Source of the DNA: Acidimicrobiales bacterium
GTDB lineage: Bacteria > Actinomycetota > Acidimicrobiia > Acidimicrobiales > Poriferisodalaceae
DNA: 6,866 bases
Assembly (NCBI GenBank): GCA_020439485.1
Contig: JAGQSP010000479.1
Span: 1-6,866, forward strand
Reading direction: 5' to 3'
A program made the translations under genes and the position numbers. This document shows positions 1 through 6,866 of this stretch, piece after piece. Under the pieces are notes generated by a model. That model saw nothing but the letters and a program-made list of their open reading frames with translations, had not been told where the DNA came from and did not search any database. The number at the start of each line of letters is the position of its first letter. Positions within the stretch are counted from its first letter, which is position 1.

Positions 1-554
1 CCAGGGACGGTCGATATCTTCACCAAGCCGTCCCACAGGTCTAGTGCGGCCTGGTCGTTGGGCACCCTCGTGATGACGGGGCCGAAGTAGGCGACCTTGT
101 CGCCCAAAGCGTTCTCGAAGGCGATGATGGGGGTTCCGATGTCGGTGCCAGCCAGGTCGAGGCCCTCTTGCATGGCTTGACGAATCACCGGATCCCAAGT
201 CTGGGCATCGTCGGCTGCAGCGGCGTGTGACACGTCGATGCCCGCAGCTTCCAAGATGCCCTCGGGCGTGATCTCGTCGCGTCGGCCATCGTGATGAATC
301 TGACGCCCACATTCCCAGTAGAACGCCTGCGCAGCCTCGTTGCCCACCGCCGCCTTTACCGACTCGAAGACGCGCAGCAACCTGTGCGTGGCATAAACCG
401 GCGACGTTTCGTCGTCGATCTCGTTCTTGAAATAGAGGCTGATCGACTTCCACTCGACGTCGAGATTGCGCTCTGGTGCAACAGCATCGACGACCCAACG
501 GGCCGTCACCCAACACCATGGTCATATGGGATCGATGTAGAAGTCGACCTTCAT
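1..554 (-). CDS. DsbA/FrnE-family (Rv2466c-like) thiol reductase, probable selenoprotein with UPWC active site; C-terminus cut by window edge
   Basis: Reading from ATG 554-552 gives MKVDFYIDPI, an in-frame TGA at codon 11 (524-522), then PWCWVTARWVVDAV and an open frame to the window edge, 184 codons in all. The family motif is DPxCPWCW, so the TGA sits exactly where the first, nucleophilic Cys belongs; Cys14 is the resolving residue. The rest is intact and typical: WKSISL at 35-40, FYWECGRQIH at 78-87, and the thioredoxin-fold cis-Pro loop GTPI at 140-143. Rv2466c, about 207 residues, is a mycothiol-dependent oxidoreductase with a CPWC centre, so roughly 20 C-terminal residues are missing here. 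A purine-rich AGGGGG (570-565) lies 10 nt before the ATG. No signal peptide is seen, so the protein should be cytoplasmic. Automatic callers would stop at the TGA or restart at GTG 509, losing the active site. The alternative is a nonsense mutation, but the SECIS-like hairpin and undamaged downstream frame argue for selenocysteine. Confidence 0.86.
489..507 (-). promoter_or_regulatory. Putative bacterial SECIS element downstream of UGA codon 11
   Basis: On the minus strand, after the UGA (524-522) and a 14-nt spacer, eight bases GACGGCCC (507-500) pair fully with GGGTCGTC (496-489). One of the eight pairs is a G-U wobble, and the loop is GUU (499-497). The apical loop begins 22 nt after the UGA. 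Known bacterial SECIS elements are small hairpins just 3' of the UGA, with the loop about 16-37 nt away and a G within its first two bases; this one fits each point. The hairpin lies inside the coding sequence, over codons for TARWVV, and would be bound by SelB with Sec-tRNA. No SelA, SelB, SelC or SelD gene is in the window. Confidence 0.75.
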
Positions 555-630: not shown

Positions 631-1146
631 GTGAGGCCGATCGTCGAAACACCGATGCAGACGCGTTGGCAACGAATGCGTGTCTGGGTGTTGCCCAGCG
701 CAATCTCACTTGTGGTTCTGGCCGCGGTGTTGGGTGCGGTCGCAACAGTGGTGTTCGACGTGGTGACCATCCGCGACTCGTCCAACCCGGGCGAGTTCCA
801 TCAGGACCAGAAGGTTCTGGTGAACACCCGTGGGAACCCCTCGCACAGCGACATGGTGGTGTTCACCAGGCCTGGCACCGACCGAGACTGGGTGGGCCGT
901 GTGTTGGCGGTGGGCGGTGACTCGGTTTCCATCGCCGAGGGCGGCCTGTTCCTGAACGGCGTGCCGGTCCGCGAGGCCTACCTGACCAACGACGACCCGG
1001 GACCCACTCTGGAGCCGTTCATCGTGCCCGCCGGATCGGTCTATGTCCTCACAGACGACCGCCGGCACGACTCGATGAGCGCCATGGGAGTGCTGCCGCT
1101 GACCCAGATTCGCGGGACCGTCAGCTTCGGGCTGTGGTTCGGCTGA
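631..1146 (+). CDS. Signal peptidase I-like protein (S26 family), catalytic Lys apparently missing
   Basis: This 171-residue protein has a basic N-terminus, one membrane anchor (about 20-45), then an extracytoplasmic S26 fold. DSSNPGEFHQDQKVLVN (49-65) aligns without gaps to the family box GSSMEPTLxxGDxVLVN, so Ser51 is the candidate nucleophile, with Met replaced by Asn. SDMVVF (73-78) matches the sGDiVvF box. WVGRVLAVGGDSV (87-99) matches the yiKRViGlPGD box, but Gly89 stands where the general-base Lys is expected; the only Lys in the protein is Lys61. Near the C-terminus, LTDDRRHDS followed by MG matches the GDNRxxSxDSRxxG region with one residue less. S26 enzymes cut signal peptides from secreted proteins, but activity here is doubtful. 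The start is GTG 631; ATG 655 is also possible, and neither has a clear Shine-Dalgarno. It is divergent from the selenoprotein gene, 76 nt away. That gap holds no promoter I can name. Confidence 0.8.
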   Translation: MRPIVETPMQTRWQRMRVWVLPSAISLVVLAAVLGAVATVVFDVVTIRDSSNPGEFHQDQKVLVNTRGNPSHSDMVVFTRPGTDRDWVGRVLAVGGDSVSIAEGGLFLNGVPVREAYLTNDDPGPTLEPFIVPAGSVYVLTDDRRHDSMSAMGVLPLTQIRGTVSFGLWFG

Positions 1147-2872: not shown

Positions 2873-4519
2873 TCAGCTAGAGCACGACAGGGTCGAGCAA
2901 CCGGCCTTGGTGCGAGCCCAGTCTGGCCGTTTGGCGGCGTAGCCGTCGCGGTCCGGTTGGTCGTCGTAGGGTCGACGCAAGAGGTCGAGCAGCAACTCGA
3001 TCTCGGCGAAATCGCCCTGGTGAGCCTTGTCGATCGCCACCTGGGCGAGATAGTTGCGCAACACGAACTTGGGATTGACCGAGTTCATCGCAGCCCTGCG
3101 CTCGGCAGGCACAGGCCCCGAGGCCACACGCTCGGCCCACAACTCGACCCACGCGACCGACGCTGCGATGTCGTCGCGTGACCACGATTGGGGCGAATAG
3201 ACCGCTGGCTCGAGCACTTCGGCGATGGCGCTACGTCGAACCTGGGGTTCGGCGTGCTCGAGCGCAAGGTCCATCTCGGCCGAGCCGAGAGCCCTGAAGA
3301 AGATCGTCATATCGGTTTCCACGCGCTGCAAGACGGCAAAGGCCCCGTCGCCCAACTCGACGTCGCCTGGCAGAACGTGGCTACCCAAGCCGAGCTTGGC
3401 CTGCACCGCCTGGCGCCAAGCGTCCTTGTAGACATCGACATAGCCATTGAGTGCGTCGGTCATCCGCTCGACGTCGCCGACCAGGGGGAAGATCGCGTTC
3501 GCCAGCTGCATGAGGTTCCAGTGAGCGACCTGAGGTTGCTGGCCATAGCGATAGCGGCGGTGCGAGAAGTCGGTGGTATTGGGTGTCCAGTTGGGGTCGA
3601 AATCGTCGATCCAGCCGTAGGGGCCGTAGTCGATGGTCTCGCCCAAGATCGACATGTTGTCGGTGTTCATGACGCCGTGTACGAAGCCCACGCGCATCCA
3701 ATCGGCCATCAGGCGGGCGGTACGGTCGCGCACAACCTCGAACCAGGCGACATAGTGGTCGGCGTCGAGCTGGCCGACCGGGCGCCCATCGGCCAAGTCT
3801 GGAAAGTGCTGGACGATCGTGTGGTCGGCCAGCTGCCTCAACAGGTCGATGTCGCCGCGCGACGCGGGCAGCTCGAAGGTGCCGAAGCGGATGAAGCTGG
3901 GCGACACGCGACAAACGATGGCCCCGGGCTCGACCTCGGCGTTGCCGTCGTAGAACATGTCACGCACGACGCCCTCGCCCGTCAGCACCAGGCTGAGCGC
4001 ACGGGTGGTAGGCACACCGAGGTGATGCATCGCCTCGCTGCACAGAAACTCGCGAATCGACGAGCGCAGCACGGCCAGGCCGTCGGCGGTTCGGCTGAAC
4101 GGGGTGGGCCCAGCGCCCTTCAGCTGCAACATCTGGCGGCCCGCACGGCGGGTGGCGACCTGGCCGAGAGCGATGGCGCGACCGTCTCCGAGCTGGCCGG
4201 CCCAATTGCCGAACTGATGACCCGCATAGGCCATGGCGAAGGGTTCGCTGCCTTCGAGCACCACGTTGCCAGACATGGCTTGGGTGAAGGCCGGGTCGGC
4301 GACCGCAGCGGGGGAGAGGTCCAGCATCGCAGCGACCTCGGGGCTGTGTGCCACCAACTTGGGCTCGGAGACCTGTGCCGGTCGCACCAGCGAGTAGGCG
4401 GCCGAGTGGACCTGGCGTCGCAGATTGTCGGGGTTGGGGTCGCCCGGCAGCAGGCTGGTGAACGAGTTGTCGAACGTCCAGGCGGTTACAGAGTCGAGCA
4501 GATCCTCGTCAGAGCCCAT
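2873..4519 (-). CDS. selO: Protein adenylyltransferase SelO (YdiU/UPF0061 family), Cys form
   Basis: This 548-residue pseudokinase-fold enzyme transfers AMP from ATP to Ser, Thr or Tyr of proteins; characterised homologues act on redox-linked targets such as glutaredoxin. The family hallmarks are present: AYAGHQFGNWAGQLGDGRAI, then LQLKGAGPTPFSR with ATP-site Lys134, SIREFL with Glu157 (23 residues on, as in the Pseudomonas syringae enzyme), the HGVMNTDNMSILG loop with Asp287-Asn288, and the metal-binding Asp297 of IDYGPYG, ten residues later. The chain ends LSCSS and then TGA: Cys546 is antepenultimate, the place where animal SelO carries selenocysteine, with another Cys at 541. It is slightly longer than typical bacterial members. 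The ATG at 4519 overlaps the end of the upstream Fic-like gene by 11 nt, so the two are probably translationally coupled. It converges with the chemoreceptor gene. Confidence 0.95.
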   Translation of the reverse strand: MGSDEDLLDSVTAWTFDNSFTSLLPGDPNPDNLRRQVHSAAYSLVRPAQVSEPKLVAHSPEVAAMLDLSPAAVADPAFTQAMSGNVVLEGSEPFAMAYAGHQFGNWAGQLGDGRAIALGQVATRRAGRQMLQLKGAGPTPFSRTADGLAVLRSSIREFLCSEAMHHLGVPTTRALSLVLTGEGVVRDMFYDGNAEVEPGAIVCRVSPSFIRFGTFELPASRGDIDLLRQLADHTIVQHFPDLADGRPVGQLDADHYVAWFEVVRDRTARLMADWMRVGFVHGVMNTDNMSILGETIDYGPYGWIDDFDPNWTPNTTDFSHRRYRYGQQPQVAHWNLMQLANAIFPLVGDVERMTDALNGYVDVYKDAWRQAVQAKLGLGSHVLPGDVELGDGAFAVLQRVETDMTIFFRALGSAEMDLALEHAEPQVRRSAIAEVLEPAVYSPQSWSRDDIAASVAWVELWAERVASGPVPAERRAAMNSVNPKFVLRNYLAQVAIDKAHQGDFAEIELLLDLLRRPYDDQPDRDGYAAKRPDWARTKAGCSTLSCSS

Positions 4520-5684
4520 GCCCCTGGAGGGTATCTGCGACCTGAGCCACTGCGGCTTCCACGACGTCCAGCAGCGGGCCGACCTCGCGCTTGACCACCG
4601 CCTGTCGCTTGGCGCGTTCGAAGCGATCGGTCAGCTCGCGGGGGATGATCACGGGGTCGTGCCCGTGCGAGCGCAGCTCGGCGTTCAGGGCCAACATCGC
4701 CACCTCGGCCGTCGCGTCAGCGAACGGGTCGACCACCAGCACCACGAACATCACGCCTACGGCACGCGCCAGGTGACTGCGTATGGGCGACAGCAGCGCC
4801 AGGCCGTGCCTCAGCGTTGTCTCGACCTCGTCGGGATCGACCAGCTCCAGGCTGGGCAGTCGGTTCGGCTCGGTTCGGAAACGGCCGGGTTCGAGGTCGA
4901 CCACGACCGAGTGGAGGTTCTGCAGCAGTTCGAGTCGGCCCTCGGCCTCCTCGATGTCAGACTCCGAGACACCCCGCAGCGAGCCACCCAGCGCCAACAC
5001 AGCAGACTCGAGCACGGCCAACGCTTCGTCGCCAACGCCGGCCACCGCCTGGGGCAGTGGCGGTGTCGGCTCACCGACGGCCAGTGCCAGGTTGGCCAGA
5101 AGCACGGCCGACTCGTCGTCGAGGTCACCGTGTCGATGTGCCAGATCCCGCGCCCCTGCGAACACCGACGCTGGGTCGGCCCACGACCGCGCGCTTTGCT
5201 TCACCCAGGTCGTCAGCTCCGAGCGGGTGAGGGTTCGCGGAGCCCGGCCTCTAACCGACCTCGACAGCCTGAGGTTGTCGGCCACGATGCGTGCCGGTGA
5301 CGACATCTTCAGGCCAAACACCCACTCTGCGTCGTCGTCGCAGCGTTCCAGGGGCCTCACCACCACGGTCACTCCGGGCAATTCGAGGTTCGAGCGCCGA
5401 CTGTCGCTCGCCACTGCAACCAGGCCTTCCACCACGGCGCCACCGGCGGCCGCTGTTCGATCGACCACCACGGCATCGGGCATCAGGTGGGCGACGATTT
5501 CCCACACATTCGACACCACGAGGTCGACGGCAGGGGTTTCGAGGTCTGCGGTGTAGACGTGACTCGCCAGGCGGCGAATCCGGCCCGCGTTGACCGCTCT
5601 GCGCAGTGTCGGCGCAGAAGCGAGATCATCGAAGAACACGGTTCCTCGAGCGGTTGGCCATGGGGTGCTCAGCGGTCGAGCCAT
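4509..5684 (-). CDS. AbiEi/Fic-type protein with a fully degenerate Fic motif (pseudo-AMPylase)
   Basis: This 391-residue protein has the layout of actinobacterial Fic proteins with an AbiEi-like winged-helix N-terminus: LASHVYTADLETPAVDLV, then NVWEIVAHLMPDAVVVDRTA within the first 75 residues. The C-terminal part keeps the Fic scaffold, with PGRFRTEPNR, TLRHGLALL, ARAVGVMFVVLVVDPFAD, ALNAELRSHG and DPVIIPREL, matching the segments around the Fic loop. The active-site motif HPFxDGNGRxxR is replaced by DPFADATAEVAM (319-330): the catalytic His is Asp, and GNGR is ATAE. The inhibitory SxxxEG helix also seems lost (GSLRGVSESDIEEAE). The frame is intact, so it looks like a maintained pseudoenzyme and not decay. 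ATG 5684 is preferred because GGAGG (5696-5692) precedes it by 7 nt; the frame is open upstream to 5945 but that overlaps the divergent transporter. It is first in an operon with selO. A regulatory or adaptor role is inference. Confidence 0.8.
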   Translation of the reverse strand: MARPLSTPWPTARGTVFFDDLASAPTLRRAVNAGRIRRLASHVYTADLETPAVDLVVSNVWEIVAHLMPDAVVVDRTAAAGGAVVEGLVAVASDSRRSNLELPGVTVVVRPLERCDDDAEWVFGLKMSSPARIVADNLRLSRSVRGRAPRTLTRSELTTWVKQSARSWADPASVFAGARDLAHRHGDLDDESAVLLANLALAVGEPTPPLPQAVAGVGDEALAVLESAVLALGGSLRGVSESDIEEAEGRLELLQNLHSVVVDLEPGRFRTEPNRLPSLELVDPDEVETTLRHGLALLSPIRSHLARAVGVMFVVLVVDPFADATAEVAMLALNAELRSHGHDPVIIPRELTDRFERAKRQAVVKREVGPLLDVVEAAVAQVADTLQGHGL

Positions 5685-5691
5685 CGATCTG

Positions 5692-5696
5692 CCTCC
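5692..5696 (-). promoter_or_regulatory. Ribosome binding site deciding the Fic-like start
   Basis: GGAGG on the minus strand lies 7 nt before ATG 5684. It is the only good Shine-Dalgarno seen near this gene and settles the start against the much longer open frame reaching 5945. Confidence 0.7.
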
Positions 5697-5762
5697 GGCG
5701 GTTTGTTTCACCGATTGCTGTTGCTGGTCGTCGATCGACGCTCGCGGGAAAGGGTTTCGTTC

Positions 5763-5786
5763 ACGAATCGGCGTTGGTGGTACAAC
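5763..5786 (+). promoter_or_regulatory. Possible promoter giving a leaderless transporter transcript
   Basis: TACAAC (5781-5786) resembles a -10 box and lies 7 nt before GTG 5794, the spacing expected when transcription starts at the start codon. The GTTCAC stretch ending at 5764 is a poor -35 match with a 16-nt spacer. No Shine-Dalgarno precedes the GTG, which fits a leaderless mRNA, common in Actinomycetota. Weak evidence. Confidence 0.22.
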
Positions 5787-5793
5787 GTCGAGA

Positions 5794-6866
5794 GTGCCAG
5801 AGCCCACGACGCGGCGCGAGTATCCCGCTGCAGCAGTAATCGCAACCGTCATGGCTTGCGCGGCCGTCGCCCAGGCATTCGGGCGCTTCACCTGGGGTGT
5901 TGTACTGCCCGACGCGCGCGACGACGTGTTGGGTGGCTCGAACACTCTTGCCGGTCTGTTGGGAACCCTGAACGTCGCTGCCTACCTTCTGGGCACCTTC
6001 GCTGCCGCAGTAATCGCCTCGCGACGCTCGCTGACCCAAATGCTGCGGCGGGGGCTGATGCTGTCGTTCACCGGGTTGACGGTGATGTGGCTGGTGCCAC
6101 ATCCGGCGGTGATGGGCCTGTCGCTGTTCACCATGGGCCTGGGTGGTGCGCTGATCTGGATTCCGTCCCCGGCATTGGCAGCAAGACGGATGCCACCGCG
6201 CCTGCAGGGCATGGCCGCGGGTCTGGTGGGTTCGGGCATCGGAATAGGCATCGTGTTCTCGGGGCAGCTGGCGGCCGCGTTTCGCGACCCACAACGGCTC
6301 GACACCTGGCGCTCGGTGTACCGGGTCGAATCTGCAATCGGGGCCGTGGTGCTGCTGCTGGCTTTCGTGGTGTTGCGCTCGCGTGGCGAGACCGTCTCGG
6401 CCCGCGGAGGCATCGGCGGGTTCCAGTCGCTTCGACGAGTGCCCGGCTGGGCCCCTCTGACCGCTTGTTACACCGCCTATGGCTTCGCCTACCTGCTGGT
6501 GATCGCCTTCCTGGTCGCAAGGCTCGAGGACGACGCCGGGCTGTCTCCAGACACCGCTTCGGCCGTGTTCTCGGTGCTGGGTGTGGCCATCGTCGTCGGT
6601 GGCCTGTCGGTAGGCGCCGCAGCCGGACGATTCGGCGTCCGCGCCACCCTGATGACGGGTTCGGCCGTGTTCGGGGCATGCACCCTGCTCATGCTCACCG
6701 GCTCCAGTCCATGGATATGGGTGGCAGCGGTGGGGCTCGGCACCATGTTCTCGGGCGTGCCCGCGTCCATTGCCACCCACATCGTGCAGACGGCATCAGA
6801 CGCCGACTATGGCCCGGCGTTCTCTGCGGCAACGTTGGCCTTCGGTGTCGCCCAGATGCTCGGCCC
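5794..6866 (+). CDS. YbfB/YjiJ-type MFS transporter, C-terminus cut by window edge
   Basis: The first 357 codons of a polytopic membrane protein are present, with about ten hydrophobic segments. The first reads AAAVIATVMACAAVAQAFGRFTWGVVLP, where the FGRFxxGxxLP pattern is typical of YbfB/YjiJ-like major facilitators. LAGLLGTLNVAAYLLGTFAAA is TM2, and the short basic SRRSLTQMLRRG stretch fits the cytoplasmic TM2-TM3 loop. GMAAGLVGSGIGIGIVFSGQLAA is a Gly-rich helix near the end of the N-terminal half, and the second half begins at about GWAPLTACYTAYGFAY. MFS carriers move small solutes by proton-coupled exchange or export; this branch has no well-defined substrate. GTG 5794 keeps TM1 whole, whereas ATG 5851 would cut into it, and no start codon lies just upstream in frame. 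The gene is divergent from the Fic-like/selO operon with a 109-nt gap. Confidence 0.88.
   Translation, partial: MPEPTTRREYPAAAVIATVMACAAVAQAFGRFTWGVVLPDARDDVLGGSNTLAGLLGTLNVAAYLLGTFAAAVIASRRSLTQMLRRGLMLSFTGLTVMWLVPHPAVMGLSLFTMGLGGALIWIPSPALAARRMPPRLQGMAAGLVGSGIGIGIVFSGQLAAAFRDPQRLDTWRSVYRVESAIGAVVLLLAFVVLRSRGETVSARGGIGGFQSLRRVPGWAPLTACYTAYGFAYLLVIAFLVARLEDDAGLSPDTASAVFSVLGVAIVVGGLSVGAAAGRFGVRATLMTGSAVFGACTLLMLTGSSPWIWVAAVGLGTMFSGVPASIATHIVQTASDADYGPAFSAATLAFGVAQMLG

Follow-up and report, generated by a model that had tools for sequence, protein, structure and literature searches.

The closest described relative of the protein reported here is Rv2466c (Mrx2) of M. tuberculosis, a mycothiol-dependent enzyme in which Cys19 attacks and Cys22 resolves, as stated in the available sections of two publications (PMC8280269, PMC11841060). 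According to these sections, enzymes of the Rv2466c type act on mycothiolated mixed disulfides via a monothiol route and on intramolecular disulfides via a dithiol route, draw on mycothiol, mycothione reductase, and NADPH for their reducing power, and are placed under SigH (PMC8280269, PMC11841060). The likeness of the present protein to NCgl2339 and NCgl2478 of C. glutamicum, grouped with Rv2466c in the DsbA-Mrx1 cluster, is drawn from the descriptions in the same partial sources (PMC8280269, PMC11841060). The Cys form of this enzyme group protects against oxidative stress and activates prodrugs.

A second group of related systems consists of the DsbA-like UxxC selenoproteins, which have been listed since 2005, including in the Sargasso Sea (2005) and GOS (2008) surveys; the preliminary description of this DNA was right that such proteins had already been reported, as the available parts of four sources list them (PMC1088965, PMC2398784, PMC9312934, PMC13188914). 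Among these sources, a 2026 review names a "DsbA-like protein form 1" under PF01323, in its accessible portion (PMC13188914). As described there, these survey selenoproteins resemble the present protein in carrying Sec at the first UxxC position of a DsbA-type protein. Unlike it, they are filed under COG2761 or PF01323, a separation based on descriptions that leaves room for overlap. The terms "mycothiol" and "actinobact" do not occur in the main texts of the four sources, as far as these were available, nor does PF22234 in the 2026 review (PMC13188914), and the accessible main text of the deep-Sep paper (PMC12013277) mentions neither DsbA nor mycothiol. The literature searched, including papers that combine selenoproteins with mycothiol or with Acidimicrobi, yielded no Sec-containing member of the Rv2466c (Mrx2) group; such a form may be hidden under the old DsbA-like label.

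The window, which denotes the whole stretch of 6,866 nucleotides analysed here, comes from an Acidimicrobiales bacterium of the family Poriferisodalaceae and carries on its minus strand an Rv2466c-like reductase gene (positions 3..554), truncated by the contig edge. The frame reads MKVDFYIDPI-TGA-PWCWVTARWVV..., with the ATG at 554-552 and the TGA at 524-522 (522..524, minus strand), which is predicted to encode the nucleophilic Sec of UPWC and stands where close homologues have Cys. Beyond the TGA, 173 sense codons run up to the edge of the window and contig. A translation in which the TGA counts as an amino acid scores 109.6 bits against Pfam PF22234 (Rv2466c-like; cut-off 27), the match covering residues 10-183. 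In phmmer alignments with two Rv2466c chains, 4nxi and 4zil, the TGA stands opposite the leading Cys of CPWC. A search of NCBIfam at E 0.001 found no matching model. The GTP cis-Pro loop is present as DIGTPII. The position of the TGA, the length of the open frame, the cis-Pro loop, and the assignment to the Rv2466c group, all put forward in the preliminary description, were thereby borne out.

The present protein shares with Rv2466c the family PF22234, the fold (4zil), the place of the C-P-W-C motif, and the cis-Pro loop. It differs in that a TGA codon with a downstream hairpin replaces the first Cys, and overall identity is about 31-33%; the motif at the site, TGA-P-W-C, corresponds to the C-P-W/F-C motif of DsbA-Mrx1 only if Sec stands for the first Cys. 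About 20 C-terminal residues lie beyond the contig, and the C-terminus in the public cluster P0001 is GFWELKRTRTERPDFGDRP. One near relative by sequence is "Actinomycetes bacterium isolate Vin_2", with 77% identity, and further near homologues are labelled as "Actinomycetia", "Actinomycetota", "Acidimicrobiia", and "Acidimicrobiales" bacteria. Past the TGA, comparison with the full-length relative L043 shows 75 identical codons, 58 synonymous differences, and 40 nonsynonymous ones. The reading proposed for this gene, and held with high confidence, is that the TGA is decoded as Sec under the direction of the hairpin, so that the gene encodes a cytosolic thiol-disulfide reductase of the Rv2466c (Mrx2, DsbA-like) type with UPWC as its active-site motif. 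A UPWC selenoprotein had been called probable at the outset, and that proposal is supported by the TGA found across the family, by selA, selB, and selD, and by a covarying hairpin.

Structural prediction is consistent with this assignment. The AlphaFold model of L043, which is 77-78% identical to the window's protein, has a pLDDT of 95.6, and the ten best Foldseek matches of this model are Rv2466c chains or 4wkw of M. leprae, with 4zil at E 1.8e-15 and 31% identity. The protein is most likely a UPWC cytosolic disulfide/mycothiol reductase whose substrates would be mycothiolated or disulfide-bonded proteins. Under the proposed mechanism, the hairpin at 508-488 would direct SelB and tRNA-Sec to decode the TGA at 524-522 (minus strand) as Sec. 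The target of the selenol at residue 11 would be either a protein disulfide or a protein joined to mycothiol in a mixed disulfide (protein-S-S-mycothiol). The intermediate would be resolved by Cys14 or by a second mycothiol, and the enzyme would regain its reduced state through mycothiol, mycothione reductase, and NADPH, a route described for Rv2466c and NCgl2478, which are Cys enzymes. In line with Sec enzymes in general, selenium would make the attack faster and over-oxidation less of a problem. If the mechanism is correct, selenium would be linked to mycothiol, which takes the place of glutathione in actinobacteria.

The role of mycothiol as reductant of the UPWC protein is proposed by analogy with these Cys enzymes, and the alternative that survives best concerns this point: the protein would be a Sec reductase whose partner is thioredoxin or another thiol, which is considered rather unlikely. 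The available portion of PMC8280269 reports that thioredoxin can also supply NCgl2478 with electrons, about 120-fold less efficiently, and the MshC matches lie under the curated cut-off (485 bits) in all 39 family genomes, at 335-432 bits in 36 of them and at just 251-277 bits, the range of cysteinyl-tRNA synthetase paralogues, in the other three (G033, G034, and G035). Against this alternative, the family and fold are those of a mycothiol-dependent enzyme, and the MshC-like ligase of the window's genome, at 402 bits likewise below the cut-off, favours MshC (400.5 bits) over CysS (335 bits). Judged from these MshC-like scores, mycothiol synthesis in the family is probable, and mycothiol stays the more likely partner of the UPWC reductase. 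As a separate matter, Sec within MshC itself was considered, as five MshC-like rows showed an in-frame TGA; four were fetched, and in the one read out (L205) the TGA proved to be an upstream stop, so this candidate was rejected.

Decoding of the TGA as Sec presupposes the corresponding machinery, for which the preliminary description had suggested a search for selA, selB, selC, and selD. The window's genome assembly comprises 3.89 Mb in 777 contigs and is 77.4% complete. It contains selA (322 bits, above the cut-off, with the gene cut by a contig start), selB directly after it (270 bits, above the cut-off), and selD (370 bits). The search of this assembly gave no selC, the fourth gene: its three RF01852 matches are tRNA-Gly, tRNA-Thr, and tRNA-Gly according to ARAGORN. 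The same-genus genome G004 does have tRNA-Sec. In the window's genome, selD (L130, G000:C55) also contains an in-frame TGA, in GAG-TGA-GCK, and is predicted to encode a further selenoprotein.

Across the family, selA is above the cut-off in 39/39 genomes, and tRNA-Sec (RF01852) reaches at least 64 bits in 32 of the 39, including G004. ARAGORN reported tRNA-SeC(tca) in all 15 loci submitted, out of 30 fetched. No tRNA-Sec lies beside selA in any of 30 selA loci taken with 1.5-kb flanks; G004 has the two about 10 kb apart on the same contig. Outside the family, selA is above the cut-off in all 17 genomes with the TGA copy and in 7 of 23 genomes picked for having no listed TGA copy (Fisher p 7e-6, with kinship not corrected for), and each of the 51 genomes whose TGA copy was read at the site has it. 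A further association, in which loss of tRNA-Sec would track loss of the TGA gene, was dropped: at 64 bits, 5/5 TGA-negative family genomes lacked tRNA-Sec (Fisher p 4e-5), but G033 holds a tRNA-Sec broken at contig ends, and the absences may reflect incomplete assemblies.

These data bear on the possibility that the TGA is read as another amino acid, either Trp under a reassigned code or Cys delivered by a tRNA that reads UGA. The Cys of the homologues would suit such a reading, and a Cys-charged UGA tRNA is compatible with the results. It is nevertheless very improbable, given the presence of selA, selB, and selD, the tRNA-Sec in most of the family, the tie between the TGA and a SECIS-type hairpin, and the fact that all four complete genes of the window end in TGA, a count first given in the preliminary description and obtained again on re-reading.

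A predicted bacterial SECIS hairpin lies 21 nt after the TGA, at 488..508 (minus strand), with an 8-bp stem and a CGUUG loop; when numbering starts at the T of TGA, the stem is formed by nucleotides 17-24 with 30-37. As given in the accessible part of PMC13188914, the model for bacterial SECIS elements requires a loop of 3-9 nt, a stem of 4-16 bp, a G in the first two loop positions, a spacing of 16-37 nt, and an energy of -7.5 kcal/mol or lower. It is satisfied in 50/50 genes, with energies from -7.7 to -10.9 and with loops CGUUG, AGGUG, or CGGUG. An alignment of the 38 distinct 45-mers from 49 genes has 100% of its cells paired in the hairpin, and in two pairs, covering seven cells, both sides have changed (G-C to A-U and U-A in one, G-C to A-U in the other), the changed positions being third codon positions of Val and Thr. 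Shuffled alignments reached values as high in 0/500 cases on four of five measures and in 12/500 on the number of pairs changed on both sides, and controls slid along the alignment gave no both-side changes. Weaker evidence comes from the window's hairpin by itself (z -2.0, with 10 of 200 shuffles equally good). Rfam gave nothing at the gathering score on the window, and its one match, on 460-560 with E 6.6, was taken as chance.

Two comparisons address whether the hairpin is conserved beyond the demands of the protein. Synonymous entropy at 4- and 6-fold codons is 0.55 bits in the hairpin (six codons) versus 1.71 downstream (47 codons), and none of 20000 draws was as low. When 27 Cys homologues and paralogues were read as DNA, one (L177, from the selA-bearing genome G065) kept all eight pairs and another (L131, the partial Cys copy of the window's genome) seven, the others keeping six or fewer. 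The codon test is the cleaner control, because the drop in the Cys genes is partly due to their different amino acids. The Cys homologues of the subfamily thus differ from the present gene in having a Cys codon in place of TGA and, in all but one of the 27, an incomplete hairpin. The exception, L177/L141 (G065:C1, about 127249-127872), encodes a Cys form (CPFC) with a complete hairpin after its TGC, possibly the remnant of a former Sec codon.

The in-frame TGA at the CPWC site is not a chance occurrence. The same codon, read at the site in each case, is found in 50 genes of the form DP[ILAV]-TGA-PWCW in 50 genomes (49 besides the window's), which belong to eight families, three of them outside the order; with so many genomes sharing the codon, a sequencing error is very unlikely. 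By PF22234 search, TGA stands at the site in 34 of the 39 family genomes, so close relatives do not uniformly carry TGC or TGT, and the hairpin that follows it covaries. A further stop-free PF22234 copy occurs in 32 of these 34. In the window's genome, C667 carries a complete Cys paralogue with CPFA at the site, and C223 carries a partial copy with CPWC. No TGA copy is listed for five family genomes, one of which (G033) has tRNA-Sec. At the level of the class, PF22234 occurs in 222 of 395 genomes, with at least 16 TGA copies among the matches listed, a lower bound in which a genome with no TGA copy listed is not thereby proven to lack one. Among 396 genomes of the phylum, a subfamily profile matched 97 at an E cut-off of 1e-20, and no active-site TGA was found outside the class, the only cases (G113, G040, and G000) all lying within it. 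Sec forms outside the class had been considered on the strength of 14 rows flagged with one TGA and were rejected, since 11 of these have Cys at the site and their TGA is the end of the frame.

That the TGA is instead a real stop or a mutation, with a working protein starting at the following GTG (507..509, minus strand; MTARWVV...) and having no active site, is exactly what public gene callers predict (P0001, P0003, P0004, P0005, and P0051), yet it is scarcely credible, since D8 and P9 before the TGA and P12-W13-C14-W15 between the TGA and the GTG are invariant in 25/25 aligned genes (25 of the 49 were used, with F5 and W6 nearly invariant), a product starting at the GTG would, by the L043 model, be missing the catalytic motif along with the first strand, and 50 genomes keep the TGA where homologues carry Cys. 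If the gene encodes a Sec-containing UPWC reductase, public annotation is in error here: the start placed at this GTG (Val), five codons past the TGA, removes the catalytic centre, and the active site is dropped in all five public clusters.

Relationships between Sec and Cys forms were examined with a tree built by a quick method from 104 proteins (51 with Sec, 53 with Cys); the Sec/Cys site was masked, and branch support is by SH-aLRT only. From 120 listed proteins, 39 were fetched, mostly full-length and favouring Cys forms; five proteins cut at the GTG and the partial C223 copy were left out, and 32 of the 34 full-length Cys proteins fetched were taken into the tree. The full-length Cys homologues fetched are 44-62% identical to the query, and Cys homologues of the subfamily read CPWC or CPFC at the site. 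The Sec/Cys label requires 12 changes on the tree, and the starred branches alone force five. Sec and Cys thus interchange on this tree, which does not distinguish gain from loss; the conserved hairpin together with the hairpin-bearing Cys gene suggests that the Sec form is old and has been replaced by Cys several times. The many close Sec/Cys pairs provide one enzyme in which to ask why Sec is kept or lost.

A distant PF22234 protein, L118 (G404:C14:9632-10201, minus strand; 143.5 bits), lies outside the count of 50 genes and has an in-frame TGA in DPI-TGA-PFAY. This UPFA form would have Sec without a resolving Cys; seven of eight hairpin pairs are kept at the same place, and selA is present in that genome.

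The broader picture of a selenoenzyme wired to mycothiol is regarded, with some reserve, as the probable one. In this picture, a UPWC Mrx2 is widespread in a single actinobacterial class, and its orthologous group has exchanged Sec for Cys, or the reverse, many times without losing the SECIS hairpin; it would include a hairpin-bearing Cys form and a separate UPFA lineage without the resolving Cys.

The surroundings of the gene vary among relatives, with no neighbour common to more than 5 of 23 loci. The divergent neighbour in the window (631..1146, plus strand) had been called peptidase-like; it is indeed a peptidase and can be specified as a signal peptidase I of family S26 (TIGR02227, 77 bits). 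Comparison with 22 other loci showed a similar divergent frame in two, L043 and L112. The 478-codon frame at 4509-5945, earlier called Fic-like, has no Pfam match at E 0.001, and that name is not upheld. Between them, at 2873-4519, lies a gene for a SelO-type protein adenylyltransferase (YdiU), whose product ends in SCSS in this Sec-using genome.
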